Below, one piece after another: positions 42,817 to 55,893 of a DNA stretch of 64,000 nucleotides (within the stretch, counting starts at the first letter, position 1; every line of letters begins with the position of its first letter). Position numbers and translations under genes: made by a program. The notes beneath the pieces were generated by a model that made no database searches, had not been told where the DNA came from, and saw nothing but the letters and a program-made list of their open reading frames with translations. The stretch comes from Stenocarpella maydis (Eukaryota > Ascomycota > Sordariomycetes > Diaporthales > Diaporthaceae). The stretch is from assembly GCA_002270565.1 (NCBI GenBank), contig NQMI01000151.1:26110-90109 (forward strand), in the 5' to 3' direction.

Positions 42817-44181
42817 TAAAGCTATTCCCAGCACTAGAATTATCAGAATCATCTTCCCTCTAGCGGTTTTCAAGGATATAGTTGCTAGAGAGCCCCCTAA
42901 CCCTATTGACCAACCACAGCCCCGTTACTCTCCACCTAGAACAAATATTCAAAGCCGTTAGTGCCTCCTCTCAAGCCTTATAATAGTAATAGAGGAATCA
43001 CCAATTAGCCATAACTAAAGAGGAATTATATACCTTAAGAAGGTATAATTATTTCTAAAACGCCCTCTTTAGCGGGCTAAATATAGCTATATTAAGGGGC
43101 TATAAAACATATATTATATAAGCTAGCAAAAAGATAATATATGTTTTATTCGAGAAGCACTCCCATATAAAATCAAGCATTATATAGGTATAGTGCCCAT
43201 TAATAACTAATAATTGCCACTTGTTAGGGTCCCTTGGCTTTATTTAAGGAATGAAGACTCTCCTCACCCACTTAAGGGCAATTTTTTCCTCTATCCATCC
43301 CTTCTTCATAGACGTAAATTGCCAGCCCTCAAAATCTTCAAGGGCTATAGGAAACCACTGCTACTAAATGCTCTTCCCTTTAAATATAATTAATAGGTCA
43401 AGTCACTTACCCAGAGCATTAACACACTCAAGGAAGGAGGTCCACGCTTGAGAATTATAATCCAATTAGGAAATAGGGCTACCCTTTAAATAGCCAAAGA
43501 TAAGGGCTTCCTCCAAGCAACCCTCCATAAGCCCCCCCTCATCAGCATTCCAGCGGTTGCCTAATTTAATAGACTTAATAATAGGCAGCTAGAGGAGGTT
43601 AAACCAAGCCCTAATATTCTTCCTTATAGCTGCTCGAATCCTTAAGGCTTCAACACGCTAATTCTTCCTTAATTAAAGCTCCGGATAATAAAAGAGAAAG
43701 CCCCAAAGCCATTACTTTGCAAGGGGAGGGTGGTCTTCACTTAAGAAGGCCAGCCGGGCTGCTAGACCCTGCAAATCAAATCAACTAAGGCCAACCCCCA
43801 ATTAGCTCTAGTTAATAATAAATAGAGCCAATATACTCTCTTAATAGTCAGAAAGAAGTCTCTAATAGCGGGAAGCCTCACGATAGCTTATGCCGCCCTT
43901 AAGGCGATCACAAAGAGTAGTCTTGGGAATATATCACGCCTTAAAGGCCCCTTATAGGGACATTCCGTTACTAATCGCATTAACTACAGTTTGCAGCTCA
44001 TCTTCTGTATATGGCTTCATAATAGTCTAATTAAGTTGGTGAAGAAGTTTGGTATCTGGGAAAAAATCCCTCGTTAAGGAATTAAAGTTTTTATATAGGG
44101 GGTCGCCAGACGCGTATACCGCATCACGCGAATGTGGGGCGGTCGGAATCAGGGGGGGTGCGGAATGGGGGTCCACCATGT
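42817..44181 (-). mobile_element. Pogo/Fot1-type transposase relic, left end missing
   Basis: The minus-strand ATG at 44017 begins MKPYTEDELQTVVNAIS, the psq-type helix-turn-helix that opens pogo/Fot1 transposases, followed by IPKTTLCDRLKG. Later come RWNADEGGLMEG, LIIFKGKSIQQQWFP, WQLLVINGHYTY, LAYIIYVLxPLNIAIFSPLKRAF and a tail ending NRxREDDSDNSSAG near 42830. The order and spacing match the family. The right end is the 22-bp terminal motif at 44162-44183 next to TA. No left terminal repeat is found before the TA-flanked element at 40801-42729, so this copy is truncated or was interrupted. Several RIP-type stops are present. Confidence 0.8.
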
Positions 44182-44404
44182 TACACAAAGACTCCGTTCG
44201 TAGGCTTGAGGCCGGAAATGAGGTGTTCTGGTGAATGCTATAAGTGGCTTTGATAGCGAAGAACACAATCTGGCCCTCTTTTGTACCCCATGAAATACTA
44301 TTGATTCCCAACATTGTGCCGACAACATTGGATCCTAGGGCGTGGATCATCTCCTTACCTTGCATGAACGGGCTTCAGTCGCCCTCTCCTCCCAGGGACC
44401 CTTC

Positions 44405-45120
44405 TTATCTCCCTCCAACAGCACCCAGATCCTTCTCCATCCCGACAAAGCACAAATCCTCCGCCAAGCCCATCCCTACGAACCGCGCCCGCGGGAATGC
44501 GGACGTCTCCCCCGTCCTCTCGAACCCGCAGCGCCCGTACCAAAGAATAAGCTCCTCCCGCGTCGACAACGCGTTGAGGCCCAGCCTGGTGACTCCCCAC
44601 GTGCGCTGGCAGTAGTCTTCGGCGTGCGCGAGGACCTGCAGCATTGAGAGTCAGCATTCGGAGAACCATAAGAGGAGTTGTATTTAGATATAGGGTGGGT
44701 CGGGCCATAGCGTGGCCATGGCATTTGAGACATAGGCTCCAGGAGAGAGTTTCTTATCCCAAAGCGGGTTTAAAAATGACTCCAGAAGCTGCTTACACGG
44801 CGGCCGAGGCCCCCTCGCTGGCGCTTGATATCCACCGCAAGCATGGACAGCCATGCAAGGTCGGGTTCGCGTCTGGAGGCCTCGACTGAGGCCACAATGG
44901 CGCCGGTAACGAGGTCTGTGACGATGAGAACCATGTGGTCCGGCTTGATCATGTTGACGAGGACCTCTTCGATGCTGATATGAAACTGCGATGCGAGCTC
45001 TGTGCTCCCTGTCCACCTCTCTCTGATGTCCTCGGTGCGGAAGGCGGACTGGATTAGTCCTTGTATTTGAGCCGCATCGTCGGGTGTGGCGACGCGAAAC
45101 TGTAGGTTTTTGTCTACCAT
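44405..45120 (-). CDS. GNAT-family N-acetyltransferase
   Basis: Two exons, 44797-45120 and 44405-44635, give 184 aa. The intron (44636-44796, 161 nt) starts GTAAGC and ends CTGCAG. The first exon opens with a typical GNAT N terminus (QFRVATPDDAAQIQGLIQSAF). The second completes acetyl-CoA-binding motif A across the splice (LAVDIKRQRGGLGRRVL), followed by the alpha-helix AHAEDYC, then LGLNALSTREELILWYGRCGFERTG, the standard motif-B region with Trp-Tyr-x-x-x-Gly-Phe. The substrate cannot be inferred: GNATs acetylate amines of many kinds. The ATG at 45120 is the only sensible start. It is the first gene after the AT-rich block, about 220 bp from the transposon end. Its intron belongs to the shared intron family in the findings. 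Confidence 0.85.
44636..44796 (-). repeat. Introner-like element, copy 1 (GNAT intron)
   Basis: In the sense direction it starts GTAAGCAGCTTCTGG, has TTTTTAAACCCGC, CTCAAATGCCATGGCCA and CTAAATACAACTCCTCTTATGG, then a branch site GAATGCTGACTC and CTGCAG. The same ordered blocks occur in the introns at 52520-52686, 54578-54743 and 54263-54441. Confidence 0.75.
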
Positions 45121-46564
45121 GTTGCCGCGCCTTTCTCGGTGGCCGATAGGGATGAGTTGAAAAAGAAAACAGTAGCCCCTTGCTACGACGACTTCATGAA
45201 ATGCTCAAATACATAACCAAGTGGAGACAATCTCCACGATCGTTCGTTAAAAGGCTCAACTATGGAGCTCCGGATTAGAAGGGCGCCCTTGACATGACGA
45301 AGACTAGGCCAACCGAATGAAGGGCGCCATTGACACAGTATTGAAATACGAAAGGAGTCTAGCCTTTGATAGAAATCCGTACCTGGAAGGAATTTATCAA
45401 AGCCTCTCGCGAGGTCCAAATTTAAACCCAACGCTCATCTGCGTGTCAGGCTCTTAAATGACAATAGTGTACCGTGCACCCCACAGGATCTGATACCGCC
45501 AACTTGAGAACCTGCGCGGCAATGTTCGAGCACGGGGGTAAAACGCTAGAATTTATCATATTTGCACAAGACGTCAGTATACTTGTCAGTCCCGAGAATG
45601 AAAATATCAAGTGTCCAAGGTATTTTACTAGTAGCGTTATCGCGAGTCTAATGACATGATTGTATTAGTGACAGGCTATCGTATTTTGAAAATTATTGTT
45701 ATCGGTGTTGTACTTCTTATCAAACACTGGGTCTCTAAGCGTTTACGACTATACGGAGGGGTCGCCGCAGCTCCTTTTTTTTTATTTTTGTTTTTTTGAA
45801 GGCGGTTGTGACCGGATTAAAAATGAAACCAGGTATTTTAGCAGCATCAATTGATGCCTTGACTTCGACTGCCTCAAGCCGGATGAGCGCAGCGTTGGGG
45901 ACAGTCTTCAGTGGATTGCTAGAGGGCCTGGACTCAGTCATTGCGGATGGTTAACCAAGCTTACTTAGGTACGCAAGGGACAGCAAGCAATATAGCTCGA
46001 GATTTTCAATCACACTGCTGTAGAACCAAGGGCCACACTCCCCTTGTGCCATTGGCCAGATACATGCTGTGGATAAGGAGTATTGTGTAGTTGAACAATA
46101 CATCTTCTTAACGCTACGTCTCTCATACGATTGATCAAGATTCCAAGACATTGCAAATGTGAATGCATTTTCTGTTCAATCCTTCCCAACTACAATTGAG
46201 ATACAGGATAAACACGACAATGCCTTAACAGAGCGTGATCAACTGTAAAACCTCGCTCGCTTCCAAGAAAAGGTCATGAATCTAATACATCATGAAAGCC
46301 ATATCCCCGACCCTGAAACCATGCAAGCGTTCAAAACATCCGAGGTGAAATCCCTTCTTTTTATTCCTTCTTGTTCATTTCAATTTCCAGCCTCCGAGAA
46401 AAGAAACGGAAAGGGCCTCCTGGGCCTTCCCCCCTACCCTTGAAACAGGGAACATGATCTTTGCGAAGTCAGAAGAGAAGCAGTCCAGATACCAAATCAA
46501 GCACAAGAAATGAAGACCGCCTTGACCGTTTACCGCCCTACCGTACATCCGTGTGACTGCGGCC
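45121..46564. other. Intergenic, no supported gene
   Basis: 1.4 kb. Short frames on both strands lack recognisable features. A T-rich run at 45772-45796 and an AT-rich stretch at 45600-45720 are the only notable composition changes. 46170-46560 is probably the 3' region of the cell-wall gene. Confidence 0.5.
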
Positions 46565-48708
46565 CTACAGCCTGGAAACACCGGTGGGGCAAACACCGTC
46601 AACGGCGCACACAGTCCGGGTGACAGTTACGGCAGAGCACTGGCCGCCAGTTCCGCCGCCGCCACCTGTGGCGGTGACGAAGACGGTCTGCGTGACCTGT
46701 GGGGTCGTCTCGGGCGCAGGGACGACGACGGTGGTTGTGAGCTGGCCGGTCGAGGTGGACAAGGCCTGGTTGCCGCCGACGGTGACAGTCACGACACTCT
46801 GGGTGGGCAGGACTGTCTTGACGGTTGACGAGGGCCGCTCCGGGCTGACCTCGGTCGTCGCGGAGGCCTTGCCGCTGACGGGGACGACCACGCTACTTGT
46901 CAGTAGGCCCGTTGAGGTCGAGGCGGACTTGCCGCCTCCCTCGACGGTGATGGTCACGACGCTCACTGTGGGGACGACGGTCTGCACGGTGGAGGAGGCG
47001 GGGGAGACTGAAACGAAGCCCCCGCCGTTTCCACCGGATCCCCCGCCGTTCTGTCCGCCTCCGTTCTGGGCCGAGCCACCGCCAATGGCGAGCGCACTCG
47101 TGACTGGGACAACCGAAGAGATCATGGTGGGGACGCCACTGATGGTGGTCCGGATTGTAGTGGGGACGGAGATGACAGTCACCCGGGTGGACGTGGAGCC
47201 AGATGATCCCTCGCCACTACCAGGCACTCCGTTGCTGCTGGGAGGGAGCTTGGTGGTAACCTGTACCGTGGAAGAAGACAGAGAAGGAGTTCCGCTGACG
47301 GTAACAGTGACAACGGTCGGGACGTTGACCACGGTGCTGCTGGACCCGGAGCCGGATCCGCCAGTCGGGGTGGGGATGAAGACTGACTCGGTTCCACTCG
47401 CTGGTGGTAAACAATTGTCAGCTCCTATACATGCCAAGGGTATATGCATCCGGTACAAGAATGGTGGTATTTTCGATTGGCAATAGGGCCTGGCGGATAA
47501 CATATAGCTATCACTAATGTTAAAAGACACTTACCGGTCACTGTGGTGATAGCAGAAGAGAAGCTTGATGCGATGGAGGAAGACAGCGAGGAGGCTGCGG
47601 TGACGGGGCAGATGGTTGTGTACTGGGCAATGGTATCGGTGATGACGACGGTAGAGACAGCTCCGGAAGGCAGAGCGGATATGGCGCTGCTTTCGGACGC
47701 CGCGGGGCAGCTGGTGACAGTCGGGGCGCAAGAGATGACGGTGCGGATAGCCGTTGCCTCAACGGTAAGTGTCGTCACAGGGACAGAAGCGTTTGCGAAC
47801 GGCGCGGGTGGGCCGCTGGCCACTGGCGAGTTGCTGCTCAAGCCACCGGACGGGGCGGCGGCACCGCCTGCTACTGGAAAGCCGGTGGTCTTGGGAGGCA
47901 GCGGAGGGAGACGGGTGGCAGAACCGTTGGAGGGGGCGCTGAGAGTTCCAGACGGCGCTGTGGCATTGGCCGGGGGTGGTACGGGCTTGGGCCCGCCAGG
48001 TTGGGCACTGCCCGGCACCTGGGCGCCACCAGTAGTTCCGTTGCCGCCCGGAAGGCTCACGGAGGGCAGGGGAGGAAGGCCGGAGGCTGGTCCGGACGGC
48101 CGTGGGGGGAGTCCAGATGGGCCACCGGTGCCTGTGACAGGCGAGTTTGAAGAGAGTGAACTGCCGGAAGAAGACGAGGGAGGCTCTGCAGGAGCTAGCA
48201 CGCCTCCACCACCAGTCCCATTCAGAGTGGGCAGGGGAGGCAGCCCCGAGGCGGGGCGGGATGGCGCCGGAGGGGCTCCGGACCCAGAAGCCCCGGCACC
48301 GGTGACGGGGGAGTTTGAGCTCAGGGCCGAGCCAGGCGCGGACAAGGAGGGTTGGGGAGGCGGCAGGGACGGTGCGGCTCCGGTTGCATTTGCGGACGGG
48401 ACCGGCGGCGGAAGACCCGAGCCGGACGAGGCGGTGACATATACGGTGTTGACCGAGACGGGTGAGACCTCGCTGGTGGTCCGGCCGGGGCAGTCCGTGA
48501 CATCAGGCGCGCAGGACGTCACCGTGTAGATGTTGGTTGTGTAAACAACCTCGGTGGTAAACTTCCCGCCAGCAGCAGGGGGGTTGGCGGCAGACCCGTT
48601 TATAGGGAATGGCGACACAGCCGGAGCAGGGGGTATATTCTGCCTATGCAGCAGACCTCCCATGGCGCCCTGCGAGAAGAGCACCGCCACGGCGTTGCGA
48701 TACATCAT
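46565..48708 (-). CDS. Repetitive Pro/Ser/Thr-rich cell-surface protein
   Basis: Two exons, 47535-48708 and 46565-47400, join across a 134-nt intron (GTAAGT donor, CCACCAG acceptor) to give 669 aa. The ATG pair at 48703-48708 is used; the frame continues upstream but without ATG. A modest N-terminal hydrophobic stretch (NAVAVLFSQGAMGGLL) could be a signal peptide. The first exon has two fungal wall-type modules with the Thr-x-x-SCAP-x-VT-x-CP pattern (about residues 47-90 and 320-380). Between them are Pro-rich repeats, three times marked by LSSNSPV. The second exon carries beta-rich Ser/Thr/Val repeats of the type TV-x-PT-x-SVVT-x-TV followed by STSTG-x-LT. No hydrophobic GPI tail is visible, so it is either wall-bound or released. 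The exact C terminus may involve another exon. Ligand and role are unknown. Confidence 0.75.
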
Positions 48709-51708
48709 GATATGCTTGTGTTTCTGCTGGAATCTGTGGTGGTCGAAGATGCTGAGTGGATCCTGCCCAGGGATCAAAAGAGTGTTGTCAATGAAGAATG
48801 AGTGAGTGAAGTGTCAAGACACTTAGAGAATGTATGGTCAGCAAGATCAACTGGCTTTGAGAGGGGCAAAGAAAAAGAATGAAAAGCACCGAATGCTGCT
48901 GTGAACCTGAAGCCAAGCTTGGAATGTCCAAACCATATCCCCGAGACAGCGAAACATGCTGCCTTCTTATACCAAATCTTCATCAATAGACACCAACACT
49001 ACGGCAGCATCTCTCAGCGCCCCCTCTTCTCATCCTCATCTCCGGTGATGTCTTCACCCAACACGGCATTGGCTTCTGTCTGGGCGATCCGATACGGTGT
49101 TGCCAGGGAGGGTCCATGCACAATGGCATCGGTGGCTGTATGGTCCAAGTGATTCCTCTTGTTTGTGACGCAACACACTCCCTCATTGGGCCCACAGTCG
49201 TCGTGTGAACTTTTTCACCTGAGCCTTCAGCTTTTATGCATACAAGGTAGAATCCATATACTTGGGACGGAGAGCACGGCCTAAGTGGAGTACAAGCACA
49301 TGCTACCTGGTAGTATACCTGCGCGGTTGGGAGAGGACGGGCCTCGCACTCGAGGCCGGCGGCGTAGTTGAGGGGGCCCGAAGTGCTCAAGGTCCAGCCA
49401 GGATACGTACAGGACCAGGGTTGTTGGCCCCTATTGCCCACTAAAACCAAGTATATACCCGATCGATCTGCAAGATAGAGTGTGGTCCGACCGGGGTCCC
49501 GCTGTTCATCTCCCGTGGTGGCCGTCTGGGTACAAGTCTCCCGGCGGCAGTCGAGCGCATAAAAGACAGGGCCACCGCAGTCTCAACGAACATCTTGGCA
49601 GCCACCCTTAATCCCGAGTCAGGGGCAGGAAACAGCTGCAAACATGGACGCAACGGTCGATTATGTCAATTCCGAGAGAGGAGTGGGCCTAAACAGACGT
49701 CGACGGGGACGGATTAGACAGGTCAGGACCCATCAGCTTCGGAGGTTAACGCCTGTCATGTAGGCCATACATGAGGAGGGGTTCGCACTGCCTACACAGT
49801 ATATCTGCTCTCATGAGACCGAGTCTCCCCTGAATCACGGCACTGCTGGAGGTGGTGGCCTGACGATCCAGCGGGATTGTCCCGGGCAGATTTTGTGCAG
49901 GGTCTTCTATCCCAACTTGCCAGGCTCGGAGATTTTATTGGTTCCATTCGTCAGTCTCGTCAAGCCTCCCAGGTGTTCGGATGAGGAACGAACCTCGCCC
50001 CTTTGCCCCTGAGCCGCCCCATCCCAGCCTTCTCCCACCGGTGCAAACCTTTCCCACGGCGGGGGCAGTCATGTTTCAGGTCTAGAACAGTTCGTTTCCC
50101 TTGGGCACGTTTATGCCCGCCCCCCGCCTCCCCCCGGGAGGCCGGCTGAACTTGGCTGGAGCTCCGCCGAATCCGGATTCCTATGCGTTGCACCACAATC
50201 ATAGCGATCGTTACTACGAGCTCATGGGGGAGACCGAGTGGCCGCGGCCACCTAGGAACCAGCCATCGGCGGTGTCGTCATGCCGCGGCTGCACTGCATA
50301 GATTAATTAGGCTCCCCTAGAGCCACAGCACTGCACCAGTACGTAGGTGCATGCCGAAATTACCACAGGGGCTTCGCCGTGATGATGCTACAGAACCGTA
50401 GCTGATTGTGAATCGGATTGATTGAGCTCCTTACACAGCCTCTCTCCGTCGTACCTTGTGACAGACACATGCCACAGTGACTGCAGGCGTCTCTGCGTGG
50501 TCCATTTGAGCTTGGGAAGCAAGAGGGGGGTTGGATGCCACAACGACCTCGGGACATAATCTCACCCTGCTCATATTTGACTCTCCATCGCCATAATAAG
50601 TCCGAGGTATTCTTGCCATATTCCACGCCGGGCTCCAGAGCTTACCGACGATTCCCCGTATGGATTGCCCCTTTCTTCGCCCACGGCGCCATGATTGCGC
50701 GTCATGAGTAATGGCCTGATTGAGACGCAGTAAGAGGCACCGAGTCAGGATAGAACTCCTCACCTGTCGATCCTCCCGAGAGCGGAAAGCAACGCCACTA
50801 TGTAGGTAAGCAAAATGTGGAGAAAATCACCAGAGAGAAAGACGGGCAAGCCGGAGCCGCTGCGGCCATTTATGCTCTCGAAACTAGCAGCTTGACGCTT
50901 TTGGACTATAACGGGGGCCTCTCTACGTGGATTATCACAGCAGAAATCGTATGGGTATAGAATAAACGGAGTGAATAATGACACGCAGGGCTGAGCAGCA
51001 TAGATATAGCAAGGAAGCAGTATGTTGGATACTAAGAATACAACTGTACTTGGAGAAACCCCCTCCCCCTTTCTTTCCTTCATTCCTTCAGAGCCGGAAC
51101 TTCTTATAGACAAATCCCTCGCATCGTCGCGGCTTCCCCGAAGCGCTGAAGCAGCGTCCTCCACGATAAGGTGGCTATTGAAGTTATAATGCTGAATAAG
51201 TGACGCTGTGGTATGGTGGTCCCCGGCAGATACAAGACACCAGCCAGCGGTGGTGACGAACAATTCCACCTGGGCGTTATGCCGGACAAGATTATTTAAC
51301 TGTTTATCAGACCTCTAGCAAAGAGACTCCTTGTCTCCGAACTGAGGGATTTGGTACCTAGGTACTTATGGAATACTGCCCATTCTTATATATAAATAAG
51401 CACTTAGAAAACATATAATACCTAGTTGTATACCGCTAATTATCTATAAGAGTCAATGTAAGTTAATAGTTTTTATAAGTATTTGGTGGTATGTATTATA
51501 CATTTATTATTAGCGCGTTTTCTGGAGTTAGTAGAGATGCAAGCCCGGGCCGTTAGTGCTAATTATTTATTCAGGGTGTGGTCGGAGTTCCGGTTCCGCT
51601 AGTTAGGCATTTCCCGGTTCCACAACGTCGGACCTCATCTATGCCATGTGGCCTGCGCTTCTCCTGCCCACGGAGTGCACTCATCACTGGTGCCTTCTCT
51701 GAGATTTC
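48709..51708. other. 3.0-kb intergenic region, no supported gene
   Basis: I find no gene with recognisable domains on either strand. Short frames at 48983-49450 (minus), 50101-50301 (plus) and 50760-51269 (minus) lack conserved motifs. A short AT-rich patch at 51380-51510 has the base pattern of decayed transposon DNA but no identifiable element. No tRNA seen. Confidence 0.5.
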
Positions 51709-53264
51709 ATGAATACAGGAAGGGCCATAATGGACCTAAATCAAGATTGGGTCTTCGTGTCGCACGATGCCGACGAAGAAGAACCGCTTTATCTCAGCGA
51801 TATCAGCTCCTACGTCGATAGAATTGCCGGGTCGCTGTGGCCAGTGAACAAGACGATCCACGATAACCCAGAGCTAGGATACGAGGAGCATATTGCGCAC
51901 GATACCCTCGTCCGATTCATGAGGTCTCAAGGAGGCTGGAAAGTGACCCCATCGGCCTATGGTCTTGAGACAGCATGGGTAGCGGTGCACGACAGCGGCC
52001 ATAAAGGACCGGTGGTCTCCTTTAACGTCGAGATGGGTATGGAGACTCGCGCGAGATACCAGCTTTGCTAACTCATGAGAGCTAATATCGTGGTACCAGA
52101 TGCTCTTATAGGCATTGGCCACGCCTGCGGACACAATCTTATCGCGACCGCCTCGCTGGCAGCCGGTCTCGCAGTAGCAGAGCTGATGCGGCAGCACTCT
52201 TTGCCCGGGAAGGTTATCCTCTTCGGCACACCCGCCGAAGAGGGCGGAGGCGGCAAGATCAAGCTCATCCAATCTGGTGCCTACAAGGACCATGGCGTCC
52301 ATATAAACCTGATATCGCACCCCGGAATTACCAATGATTGCGCCCTGATGCGGACAACAGCATACACGCGCTTCAAGGTCGAATACTTCGGCCGCGAAGC
52401 CCACGCCGCGGCGAACCCATGGCTCGGTATCAATGCCCTCGACGCTTTGATCACTGCGTATAACTCGATATCAGTGCTGAGGCAGCAGACTATGCCGGGC
52501 GATATCATCCAGGGTCACAGTAAGCAGCTTCCAGGGACATTTTCAACCCGCATAGGAATGATGATCTCCTTGTTTGAGCCCATATATTGAAGTCTACGGG
52601 CTTCCTGTGGCTTACTCCACCTGTTTCCCAATGAAACTTCTCCTTCGGTCCTTTGATCTTTGAATGCTAACTCCCTGATGCTGCAGTCACGGATGGCGGC
52701 GCGGCGCCGAATATCATCCACGCCTACGCTGCGGGCGTGTTCGTGGTGAGAGCAGGCACGCGCTCCCGGCTGAAGCAGCTCAAGAAGAAGGTCGACGGGT
52801 GTTTTGAAGCGGGTTCCACAGCCACGGGCGCGAGGCTCAAAATGACAGAGGAGCAGGCGTATGCGGATCATGTCCCGAATCGTGTGTTGGCAAGGATTTA
52901 CACACGATACTTTAATTTCCTGGTTCCTGAGAAAGATGATCCTTACGAGCCTCCAACATCTAGAATACCAGTTGACCAGGATATCGACCAGGCGAGAGGA
53001 GTGACGAGGGCCAGTACGGACCAGGGTGATGTCAGCTACCAGATGCCCAGCTTGAGTGTCGGTTTCTCAATCGTGCCCGGACCAAGGGGACAGGGCCCTC
53101 ACAACCCCGAGTTTGCGGGATCTGCTGGAACAAGAGACGCATTTGAGAGATGTTTGAGGGTTGGGAAAGCATTGGCCGGGACGGCTTTGGCTGTGGTGAC
53201 TGAGAAGGAATTGCTCAAGGAGGTACAATCTGCGTGGGAGAAGGACATGGAACAATACAATTAA
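51709..53264 (+). CDS. M20-family amidohydrolase/peptidase (PM20D2/AbgB-like)
   Basis: Three exons: 51709-52036, 52100-52519 and 52687-53264, 441 aa. The stop codon seen after the first exon lies in a 63-nt intron (donor GTATGG, branch TTTGCTAACTC, acceptor ACCAG). Splicing gives SFNVEMDALIGIGHACGHN, the M20 metal-binding Asp and His-x-Cys-Gly-His region. The next block, FGTPAEEGGGG, holds the catalytic and metal-binding Glu pair; GREAHAAANPWLGINALDA is the dimerisation-domain start; ASTDQGDVSYQMPSL and GPHNPEFA are C-terminal landmarks. The family hydrolyses amide bonds of small N-acyl or dipeptide substrates in the cytosol with two zinc ions. The length fits. Met-8 (51730) is an alternative start. 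The second intron (167 nt) belongs to the introner-like family in the findings. Substrate unknown. Confidence 0.9.
52520..52686 (+). repeat. Introner-like element, copy 2 (M20 intron 2)
   Basis: Starts GTAAGCAGCTTCCAGGG, then ATTTTCAACCCGC, a centre with TTTGAGCCCATAT, AATGAAACTTCTCCTTCGG, branch GAATGCTAACTCCC, end GATGCTGCAG. Almost the same first 12 and last 20 bases as the GNAT intron, although that gene is on the other strand 8 kb away. Confidence 0.75.
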
Positions 53265-54046
53265 GAAGGCTACAATCGTGGCTTCTATTGGGTACATGAT
53301 TGCTGGAAATGCTGACTACAATCGTTTGCGATCATCATCCATACTGGAAAAGCTGCGTTTTAGCTGCATCATTCCGACTGATCCCCGCCCCCTGTAATAT
53401 AGGTAGGTGTACCGTTCCCACGTCGGCGCCTAGAGCATCTTAACATTGAACAACAGCGCGTGCGACATCCCTGATAACAGTCAAGTCAAGTGGCTTCTTT
53501 CCCGTTCCAGGGATCAGCATGCTGCTGCCCGCGAAGTTAACAGGGATGCCTGCGCTGGGAGTTCCTCCGCGAAGTAGCTTGTGGCGGCTCAGGAGCCAGT
53601 GATAGCAACACGCGCAATGAACGACTATGGGTTAAGATGGAATGTAAGCAACACGTGACGATGCCGGTACTCTTTTGTAAGTCTCGAGCCAATATATCAA
53701 GAATCCAATGTCTTCTCGTCCTCAAGGACTGCCAGAACTGCATATTTTATATTTGACCGAAGGTTCTATTATCAGCAGCTGTGGGTCGAGCTCAGCGGAG
53801 CCTACTAATGGCGACAGAGGAGCAGACCTGGCGTTCATGGAAGAGTGTAAGCATGCAGATCACTCCCTCATCAGTCCACAGCGAGCGCTATTCACCAGAC
53901 GAGAGACTCAAGCAAGCCAGTTGTCTGCGCCATGAATACTCTAGAATTTAAGTGCGGATATCGATCAGAAATACCCGCCAGAGACTATCACCAGTCTCCG
54001 ACATCCGGTGTATACCTGACTGTCGTCATGAAGAACCCCCTTTGAA
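53265..54046. other. Intergenic between convergent genes, no supported gene
   Basis: About 780 bp between the ends of the M20 gene (plus) and the OBAP gene (minus). One short plus frame (53708-53935) has no recognisable feature. Confidence 0.5.
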
Positions 54047-55199
54047 CTAAGTTTGTTTCCATGTTGCATCAGCATCAGGATGAATCTCAGGCTCTTTGAT
54101 ATACTCCCGAATCTCCTTCTTCCTCCTCCAGTCCGCGCCACCGAACCTGGAGTCCCTCTCACTCGCCACGGTCTCAAAGTCCGGCATCTGCTCAGCCTTG
54201 GTGAAGCTCGTCATCAACTTCGGCTCGCCCAGTGGGATCTTGTGTCCCCTGTCCACCTGCCACTGCAGAATTACGGGTTAGCTTTTCAAAAACTCTGGAA
54301 GAGGTTTCATTTGAATACAGCACGGAACAGGCGAAAGTTTGGCCATGGGTTTTGAGACACGAGCTCCGGAATAGGTTCCAGCAAAGAAACTATTACTCCC
54401 AGCCGGGTTGAAAACAATAAGCACGCCCAGAAGGTGCTTACCAGGTGGTAGACTTTGCCGTAGAGCTCGACCACGTCCTCCATCTCAGCGGACTCGGCCT
54501 GCTCCCACGCGGCAGTGGGCACGAGGATTGAGGGCTGGGGCATAATGAGCATTCCAGACTTGACCTCAAAGACGTGGCTAGTGCAGTATTCAGAGTCAGC
54601 TTTCTAAGAGCCAAGGAAGAAGTTTGTTCAAATATAGCATGGAACAGGCCACTGTGTGTGTGGCCATGGCTTTTAGATAAAGGCTTAGGGTACGAGATTG
54701 ACATTCCCATGGTAGGTAAAAGGAAATATCGATAGAAGCTCACCTGTGCCACAGCTTGCGCTCCTCGGCGTCCAGGGTCTCGTACAGCCTTGGGGTGATC
54801 ATGTACTCGATGCCAATGAGGCGGGCGCCCGGGTTGGGGCTGTCGTAGAGGATGCACTGGCGGACATCTATGGGAATGTGGTGAGTGGCCTGCCTGCGCC
54901 TGTTGCACCACACCATGGCGCGTGATACATACCTTCTGTCAAGTGACTGCAGTAGTGATTCGCCTCGACGAAGCGCTTGGGGTCGTCGGCGTACACATGG
55001 AAGGCATTCAAGTGTGCACAGATGCTTTTGACTGGCATGAAATCCTGCCAGGTAGTGTCAGCATCCGTAAATGCGATGATTTATTCTGGCCTGCATTGGA
55101 GGGCATCGCGCTTACCTGAGTCATGGCTGCGCCGGCCTCCAGCACCTTGCTCTTGGTGGTGCGCTCATCACCAGCTACGTTTTGCTGCGACTCTGCCAT
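54047..55199 (-). CDS. DUF1264 / oil-body-associated-protein-like protein
   Basis: Five exons: 55116-55199, 54933-55044, 54744-54867, 54442-54577 and 54047-54262, giving 223 aa. All junctions keep frame with GT-AG ends. The assembled protein shows the DUF1264 pattern in order: [31 protein letters not shown], then [61 protein letters not shown] and PLGEPKLM. In plants this family (OBAP) associates with lipid bodies; the role in fungi is not established. The C terminus is a charged, Arg/Lys-rich extension. The two short introns are ordinary (71 and 65 nt); the other two (166 and 179 nt) belong to the introner-like family. The ATG at 55199 (MAESQQN) is the first in frame. Confidence 0.85.
54263..54441 (-). 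repeat. Introner-like element, copy 4 (OBAP intron 4)
   Basis: 179 nt. Sense start GTAAGCACCTTCTGGG; then TTTTCAACCCGG, TCTCAAAACCCATGGCCA, GCCTGTTCCGTGCTGTATTC, AAACCTCTTCC, branch AAAAGCTAACCC and TTCTGCAG. Closest to copy 3 in its middle and to copy 1 in its CTCAAA/CATGGCCA block. Confidence 0.75.
54578..54743 (-). repeat. Introner-like element, copy 3 (OBAP intron 3)
   Basis: 166 nt. Sense start GTGAGCTTCTATCG; then AAAAGCCATGGCCAC, GCCTGTTCCATGCTATATT, AAACTTCTTCCTTGG, branch GAAAGCTGACTCTGAAT and CACTAG. It has a diverged 5' third, but the rest aligns with the other three copies in order. Confidence 0.75.
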
Positions 55200-55893
55200 G
55201 CTGCAGGAAGCCCCTGAGCTGTTTCGCAGTTGCTTCAGGGTGTCGGTCAAGTTGAAGGTTCTACAGCACTTGGGCTGACAACAGGTTTGCTTTATGCTGG
55301 AAATGTTTGGTCTACTGGCTGTCATGATGATGCGCACCTGAGCGAGGGCGCACATTGAGGTTTTGCATGTTGGGGTGCGGCTGGTTGGTGCCAAAGTTAC
55401 GTCAGTGGACGTCATCGCCAGTGCAACCGTTTTAACAAACGTCCTCGAGCACTCCGCAGAAATCGGCGGCAGAGTTTGGGTTTTTGCAAAGAGTGGAAAT
55501 AAAATTGCACGAGGCGGAGCATTGATACTACCTAGGTAGATAGGTTTCTATGCCTGAGTCCTGGTCATTTCTCCCTGCACTACCCCCATCGCTCAGCCCC
55601 ATACAAGCACTAATACATTTACACCCCATAGTTAATCATTTTTTGAGATAATTACATGCTATATCATTTTGTGACTGGACGACTCTTTATACTGCTTGGG
55701 AATTCCAACCTGCTGGTTGGAAATTCTGGTCTTTTGGTCAATCTGGCTATTAGATCAATCATAATACGTTGCCAAGCAGTACGTATTATGTGTCAGTCCC
55801 GTTACAATTAGGTGATGAAGTGTTATGAAGGAAATAGCAAGCATCGTTTTTCTTTTTCTCTTTCAAGGGTTACGTCCTGACATGCCCAGATGG
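55200..55893. other. Intergenic, no supported gene
   Basis: Upstream of the OBAP gene and downstream of the methyltransferase gene. A palindrome-like stretch at 55695-55730 (TTCCAACCTGCTGGTTGGAA) is the only structure I noticed. Confidence 0.5.

Follow-up and report, generated by a model that had tools for sequence, protein, structure and literature searches.

Four introns in a 64,000-nucleotide stretch of Stenocarpella maydis DNA (the window) belong to a family of spliceosomal introns, about 160 nt long, which we interpret, with a probability of roughly 0.95, as introner-like elements (ILEs), that is, introns which multiply as units. Their host, which protein identity places with Diaporthe, is a Sordariomycete and not a Dothideomycete. 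The interpretation is based on the splice-site ends of the copies, their sense placement in genes checked for protein domains, the lack of a target-site duplication (TSD) and a consensus with paired ends. It had been put forward in the initial annotation and is supported by many homologous copies that take up whole introns of genes with unrelated products. The full statement, ILE identity together with reinsertion at the RNA level, is in our judgement likely as a whole; for the RNA route of spread as such the odds are about even.

Four homologous introns in the window

All four introns have GT...AG ends, run in the same sense as their genes and measure 161, 167, 166 and 179 nt (Table 1), as had been annotated. 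Their proposed homology is confirmed by all six pairwise comparisons, which scored above 1000 dinucleotide-preserving shuffles (0/1000 matched any observed score, local or global) with 67–71% identity over ungapped columns (n = 6); antisense comparisons of the four were no better than shuffles. A covariance model was trained on 75 copies, which included three of the window introns but not OBAP intron 3. It scored the four at 78–167 bits and the next match in the 64 kb window at 6.7 bits (E 2.8), in agreement with the claim that the other introns of the window do not share the sequence blocks of the four. They are the sole clear family members within the window.

In the predicted spliced products, the GNAT and DUF1264 domains span the ILE junctions (Pfam), and the M20 product shows a gap-free alignment across its junction with a Diaporthe eres protein. 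OBAP is the name given in the initial annotation; the corresponding Pfam family is DUF1264. OBAP intron 3 falls next to subfamily B, with low support (0.56), and the predicted fold of OBAP intron 4 has no end pairing. A group II intron was set aside, as an Rfam search of window positions 44000–55500 returned no match up to E 1 to group II introns or other curated RNAs.

Table 1. Family introns in the window, with the exons and the ordinary intron of their host genes.
Feature	Position	Strand
GNAT exon 1 (start codon up to ILE)	44797..45120	-
ILE copy, GNAT gene, 161 nt, GTAAGC...CTGCAG, young lineage	44636..44796	-
GNAT exon 2 (through stop)	44405..44635	-
M20 peptidase gene exon 1	51730..52036	+
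M20 intron 1, ordinary, outside family	52037..52099	+
M20 exon 2	52100..52519	+
ILE copy, M20 intron 2, 167 nt, older lineage	52520..52686	+
M20 exon 3	52687..53264	+
OBAP exon preceding intron 3 (part read; gene extends upstream)	54744..54868	-
ILE copy, OBAP (DUF1264) intron 3, 166 nt, GTGAGC...CACTAG	54578..54743	-
OBAP exon separating two ILEs	54442..54577	-
ILE copy, OBAP intron 4, 179 nt, older lineage	54263..54441	-
OBAP final exon	54047..54262	-

Copies, host genes and insertion sites across the genome

Many further copies had been anticipated for each intron. Searches of the 53.5 Mb genome returned them for the GNAT intron and OBAP intron 3, but only two matches each for M20 intron 2 and OBAP intron 4 (three of these four partial), which we therefore regard as members of older or rarer lineages. 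With the GNAT intron as query, 40 of 79 candidates were scored and 39 non-self matches obtained, of which 33 span the entire 1–161; OBAP intron 3 gave 38, mainly over the second half of the intron. That the family is genome-wide, as predicted, is also evident from its end patterns: the 5′ pattern occurs at 114 sites versus 2 in the control, the 3′ pattern at 143 versus 3, and both ends exactly at 45 versus 0, with a length of 156–171 nt in 58 of 64 end-paired sites. Calibration within three mismatches recovered 15 of 29 rows (5′) and 20 of 29 (3′), or 20/34 and 24/34 before five loosely name-matched rows were removed; 114 and 143 thus scale to ~220 and ~207, and we estimate the family at ~200 copies. 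Counting subfamily B by its 5′ end at three mismatches yielded 53 sites versus 63 in the control; 16 of the 53 had at most two mismatches, a split made for the genome count and not for the control.

A profile search over 260 kb of the genome, chosen for its matches, identified 87 copies, 77 of them full-length with GT...AG ends. Among these 77 copies the median pairwise identity is 73%, the median to the best partner 84%, and the best pair in the 260 kb reaches only 95.7%, so that no copy is demonstrably very recent. The 77 copies used for target bases are the 87 minus ten (five of subfamily B, C261, C243:197314, C111 and two C110 copies) and differ slightly from the 77 used for identity and TSD; the 75 aligned copies are the latter set without C111 and C304:176417. 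One C110 copy lacks the first 8 nt and has no evident host frame. Close pairs in the same orientation are found four times within 1.5 kb (0.54 expected for a uniform genome), one being the OBAP pair of the window. For comparison, motif and frame were used to predict 55 ordinary-like introns at family-bearing loci; their median length is 82 nt, shorter than the ~160 nt of the family.

Open frames discriminate weakly in GC-rich DNA, and Pfam domains across the junction were adopted for this reason. Twenty predicted spliced products were picked by eye among the 32 longest of 60; 18 of these hand-picked products carry a domain across the junction, representing 17 different families, and two are without a family. 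Together with GNAT and OBAP, these families bear out the claim that the hosts are unrelated, and genic and sense placement is shown for the copies in 22 genes in which a Pfam domain, or comparable evidence, covers the junction. Frames remained open over 129 + 129 nt in 58/77 spliced copies versus 42–45/77 when the boundary was shifted out of frame, and in 61/80 copies in sense versus 44/80 in antisense. A heuristic frame call assigned phases 0, 1 and 2 to 30, 36 and 11 copies; the codon-matched expectation rests on the same call.

Paralogs, used in place of orthologous sites in relatives, give a mixed picture. An M20 paralog in the same genome reads through the ILE site, with one TGA inside its match, and its alignment breaks at M20 intron 1 too. 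Among aldo/keto reductase paralogs, the best (C268) contains three stops within its match, and the matches of others start at residues 108–111, so that an intron may lie near that spot in them.

No TSD was detected among the 77 copies (lowest p 0.25 over 16 positions; best exon–exon z 2.2 of 36), and base frequencies at flanking exon positions −8 to +8 revealed no similarity past a target preference. This preference concerns the base following the insertion point, which is T in 40/77 and C in 2/77.

The near-terminal stem and a proposed route of spread

A hairpin had been predicted and is present: in 64/75 copies, versus 43/300 shuffles, the 25 nt at one end can pair with the 25 nt at the other over at least 8 bp, whereas ordinary-like introns reach this in 7/22 (100–200 nt) and 12/38 (up to 120 nt). 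The mean folding z of the copies is −1.8. The stem, taken from single-sequence folds and a gap-filtered, RIBOSUM-scored consensus, comprises 27 pairs, 88.4% paired versus 37–50% when slid. It stems from an imperfect inverted repeat that begins 4 nt inside the element (base 5 inward), with the 5′ arm just inside the donor; the 3′ arm covers CTGAC, the likely branch-site element, together with the sequence leading up to CAG. RNAalifold under default settings found no consensus structure in the full alignment of 75 copies; in the gap-filtered alignment it produced no structure for the whole set or for the 30 most diverged copies, and only a few pairs for the remaining 45. Cells with changes on both sides were in excess (27 versus 15.0 in shuffles, 0/500) and the covariation score was exceeded by 9/500 shuffles, while doubly changed pairs (8 versus 8.0) and further pair types (40 versus 39.5) showed no excess. 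Covariation is thus only partial and does not establish that the stem is maintained once a copy has inserted.

We propose that the intron would be transcribed with its host gene and then excised, and that the near-terminal stem may keep both ends of the excised RNA together. This RNA could then enter the opened coding strand of a second transcribed gene by reverse splicing, and would subsequently be copied into DNA. The expected outcome is a seamless new intron, functional in the sense direction only, which would later decay to an ordinary intron.

The main competitor is a non-autonomous DNA transposon, or MITE-like introner, in which a transposase recognises inverted-repeat ends and terminal splice signals turn genic sense insertions into introns. 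Inverted repeats close to both ends would fit, as would a partly palindromic target preference, with A|T across the site in 22/77 copies versus 14.0 in permutations (p 0.0003) and CATG in 12 versus 8.4 (p 0.05). However, the palindromic signal is missing in the 40 best-scoring copies (p 0.19–0.51) and stems from the other 37. The repeat is imperfect and starts inside the element, no position shows a TSD, and the 18 domain-bearing products of the 20 hand-picked ones place the element in sense; we consider this explanation unlikely. A similarly doubtful proposal is that of an ascomycete introner lineage that chooses a short, partly palindromic site around CA|TG in place of the AG|G proto-splice site and whose mobility depends on a near-terminal, branch-site-masking stem. 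If true, it would imply a dedicated machinery for insertion that works on an intermediate with paired ends, rather than plain spliceosomal reverse splicing.

Less probable still is that these canonical introns derive from a [D1,2] stwintron by missplicing or cropping, as in Hypoxylaceae. Fungal class and a similar end-to-end symmetry are shared with that system as far as it is described in the available text of PMC8469720 and PMC12403724, but GTAAGC lies directly at the exon in copies of the family and the consensus, inspected by eye, contains no internal AG|T donor. Since G precedes the donor in only 22/77 copies, they are as a class not GGU-type. Old ordinary introns whose likeness is due to gene conversion or common constraint, or which duplication of genes or segments has spread without mobility, would account for a C110 copy that is present twice in an inverted duplication, but hardly for hosts from 17 Pfam families, exon flanks that are alike only in the target preference, or sites that are read through in some paralogs. 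Moreover, of the 55 ordinary-like introns a single one matches the family profile, at E 0.51 with E up to 10 allowed, and we give this explanation almost no credence.

Novelty and comparison with known systems

The origin of new spliceosomal introns is a long-standing question, and the family extends self-multiplying introns to Diaporthales. Copying of introns is a known route to new ones, for which Diaporthales is apparently a new setting: the literature searched, whose coverage leaves out most subscription journals, held no introner report for Diaporthe or Diaporthales, and the word introner is absent from the accessible text of PMC5639578. Within a single genome the family has lineages that differ in age, together with a target preference that can be measured and a defined stem between its ends. 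Public protein data exist for at least six named species of Diaporthe, which should make it possible to compare filled with empty sites and to separate the models of reverse splicing and DNA transposition.

With the ILEs of Dothideomycetes (Zymoseptoria, Fulvia, Dothistroma), in so far as the consulted portion of Collemare et al. (2015; PMC4457414) describes them, the family shares a length above that of ordinary introns, a large number of similar copies spread over unrelated genes, families that differ in age, seamless insertion, a symmetrical or stable structure and genes with two copies. It differs in belonging to Sordariomycetes, order Diaporthales, and in its fewer copies and lower identity, the comparison being one of descriptions and not of sequences. 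The target preference of Dothideomycete ILEs is AG/GY, attributed in the part of PMC8469720 at hand to van der Burgt et al. (2012), whereas T follows the insertion point here and C is rare.

DNA-type introners of algae and other eukaryotes, going by the sections of Gozashti et al. (2022; PMC9860276) at our disposal, likewise multiply in bulk, and the near-terminal inverted repeats resemble those of families with terminal inverted repeats; in contrast to these, our family lacks a TSD and its repeats are imperfect. Sister stwintrons and type-2 cropped sister introns of Hypoxylaceae and Xylariaceae, as presented in excerpts of PMC8469720 and PMC12403724, also occur in Sordariomycetes, have (near-)terminal inverted repeats able to pair the ends of the excised RNA, show no TSD, function on the coding strand only and are missing from some paralogs. 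Unlike these, the family consists of canonical introns, has more copies and forms a stem that differs in sequence and takes in the likely branch-site element with its 3′ arm, while the stwintron repeat lies after that element. Hypoxylon stwintrons show no exon-border pattern in the same accounts, whereas the family described here has a target preference.

Four homologous introns in the window

The initial annotation placed four homologous introns in the window: a GNAT gene and an M20 peptidase gene hold one each, and a gene termed OBAP (Pfam family DUF1264) holds two. All four lie at the stated positions. They share 67–71% identity over ungapped columns of the sense strand in all six pairs; none of 1000 dinucleotide shuffles reached any of the pairwise scores, and antisense comparison of the four scored no higher than shuffles. 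A covariance model of these introner-like elements (ILEs), built from 75 copies including three window introns but not OBAP intron 3, singled out the four as the sole convincing members in the 64 kb (78–167 bits; next match 6.7 bits). An Rfam search of window 44000–55500, up to E 1, returned zero matches. The protein predicted from the spliced M20 gene shares 88% identity with one of Diaporthe eres (Sordariomycetes, Diaporthales), with no gap across the ILE junction; its six best named matches are all from Diaporthe, with two unnamed ones ranking among them. Elsewhere in the window, an AT-rich block could be RIP-mutated repeats, and a GC-rich stretch looks by eye like a minus-strand gene for a repetitive protein.

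Locations of ILEs and other features (C, contigs of the same genome; L, loci extracted around matches)
Feature	Location	Remarks
GNAT intron	window 44636–44796	
M20 intron 2	window 52520–52686	
OBAP intron 3	window 54578–54743	
OBAP intron 4	window 54263–54441	
AT-rich long block	window 8001–44000	GC 0.23–0.39 (4-kb steps); flanks 0.44–0.58
GC-rich stretch	window ~46530–48700	internal repeats (by eye)
Copy without first 8 nt	L012: 1441–1601; C110: 34297–34447	no evident host frame
Further ILE pair	L056 (C89)	≤1.5 kb apart, same orientation
Further ILE pair	L035 (C218)	≤1.5 kb apart, same orientation
Further ILE pair	L033 (C167)	≤1.5 kb apart, same orientation

Copies and lineages across the genome

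As had been anticipated, the GNAT intron has further copies in the genome (53.5 Mb, 312 contigs), at no fewer than 39 places (40 scored among 79 candidates), and 33 of the 39 matches cover the full 1–161 at 79–86% identity. OBAP intron 3 as query gave 38 more matches, M20 intron 2 and OBAP intron 4 two each. The 5′ end pattern (≤3 mismatches) occurs at 114 sites versus 2 in the control, the 3′ pattern at 143 versus 3, and both ends exactly at 45 versus 0. Among the first 100 sites listed per end, 64 were paired, 58 of them spanning 156–171 nt. Merging the listed sites with the window copies gives at least 139 on 80 contigs, a count that may hold a few chance sites and leaves out copies detected by similarity alone. 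Scaled by the share of copies found with OBAP intron 3 that match the end patterns (20/34 and 24/34; 15/29 and 20/29 without five loosely name-matched rows), the copy number is very roughly 200 to 220. In four pairs of copies, the window's own OBAP introns among them, the two members are no more than 1.5 kb apart and share one orientation; 0.54 pairs would be expected in a uniform genome, and more if genes are the only targets.

A profile search of 260 kb (the extracted loci and the window, hence enriched for matches) yielded 87 matches, 86 distinct, of which 77 are full-length GT...AG copies. Of the GNAT-type matches among those listed, 26/30 run exactly from GT to AG; since the GNAT query itself stops at the intron ends, the end of similarity must be shown by the flanks, where base frequencies from −8 to +8 revealed no conservation besides the target preference. 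The family consensus starts GTAAGCAGCTTC and ends GCTGACTCTCAATGCTGCAG. Pairwise identity has a median of 73% (best-partner median 84%, best pair 95.7%). Rooted at its midpoint, the tree can only suggest in which order the bursts came; it places the GNAT copy in a bushy young clade, M20 intron 2 and OBAP intron 4 on older branches, and OBAP intron 3 (support 0.56) beside a distinct subfamily B (support 0.99; L028, L030, L016, L023, L007). Subfamily B has different ends (e.g. GTCAGCTTC...GCTGGACCAG), and the exon before its donor ends in AG in all five copies. In 3/5 the donor reads GTCAGC and is thereby exactly reverse-complementary to GCTGAC, the branch-site stretch, and in folds of three copies the donor pairs with that stretch or near it.

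The copy on C110 lacking its first 8 nt is present twice, in inverted orientation with identical flanks. At L091, the intron right after the ILE in the same gene starts GTAAGTAACTTCCGGAGGC, ends TTGCAG and looks by eye like a shrunken ILE.

Near-terminal stem, insertion sites and splicing

The hairpin proposed for the family is present, as the ends pair in single-sequence folds; default RNAalifold gave no consensus structure. In the single-sequence folds GCAGC pairs with GCTGC and GGAGTCA with a TGACTC stretch, within which lies CTGAC, presumably the branch-site motif, and further pairs extend to about position 39. At least 8 pairs between the first and last 25 nt were found in 64/75 copies versus 43/300 shuffles; ordinary-like introns gave 7/22 (100–200 nt) and 12/38 (up to 120 nt). 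On the alignment, 88.4% of stem cells are paired versus 37–50% when the stem is slid, and 27 cells are changed on both sides versus 15.0 ± 3.2 in shuffles; pairs changed on both sides and further pair types in the stem stayed at shuffle level. We read the stem as a feature of the family's progenitor that decaying copies need not have kept. Among window copies, M20 intron 2 (15 end pairs) and the GNAT intron (12) retain it; OBAP intron 3 has 7 end pairs and OBAP intron 4 has 0.

No target-site duplication was detected at any position tested. The base after the insertion in 77 copies is T 40, A 19, G 16 and C 2 (codon-position expectation 16.8, 17.9, 21.6 and 20.7), with C following 9/38 short ordinary-like introns versus 2/77 ILEs (Fisher p 0.0007). 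Genome-wide, T follows 26/45 exact 3′ ends (25/44 with the duplicated C110 copy counted once). Upstream, C is favoured at −2 (38/77; expected 25.4) and A at −1 (27/77; expected 15.1). Taken over all copies, there is a suggestive signal of target symmetry (A|T or CA|TG), which is absent among the 40 best-scoring ones.

Intron behaviour is indicated by Pfam domains of 17 families (including sugar transporter, peroxidase, GH43, CoA-ligase, aldo/keto reductase and pectate lyase) that cross the splice junction in 18/20 predicted spliced products, hand-picked among the 32 longest of 60, the window's M20 included, and thus not a random sample; the other two had no Pfam match. GNAT and DUF1264 domains likewise span their own ILE junctions. 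Predicted splicing leaves an open frame over 129+129 nt in 58/77 copies (42–45/77 with the boundary shifted out of frame), and by strand in 61/80 sense versus 44/80 antisense; such counting by itself is weak evidence of splicing.

Intron gain, mechanism and known introners

An M20 paralog on C297 aligns in one piece over residues 100–432 (67% identity, one TGA counted inside), crossing the ILE site at residues 242–243 and breaking at intron 1; the alignment of a second paralog stops short of the site. Aldo/keto reductase paralogs on C156, C86, C262 and C10 (33–38% identity) continue across the ILE position in stop-free pieces spanning at least residues 3–194. The best-scoring paralog, on C268, has three stops within its match, and in several others the match begins or breaks at residues 108–111, so those paralogs may have an intron near the ILE position. 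Gain in the host gene is one reading of the uninterrupted paralogs; ILE loss from them is a possible alternative.

As to how copies arise, excised intron RNA with paired ends would be reinserted into transcribed DNA. Such reinsertion fits the feature set, namely sense orientation in the tested genes, coincidence of intron and element ends, lack of duplication and paired-end RNA. The main rival is DNA transposition. According to PMC8469720, on Hypoxylon, plain reverse splicing leaves the symmetry unexplained.

Self-copying introns as a kind are already known; searches of an open-access library found no earlier introner report for Diaporthe. Gozashti et al. (PMC9860276) count Pezizomycotina as one of the introner groups and state that ascomycete families lack TIRs and TSDs. 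As far as could be seen, what is new is the host order Diaporthales, a stem that covers the likely branch site, and the preference for certain target bases. A largely similar feature set, bearing on mechanism, is described for Hypoxylon in PMC8469720.
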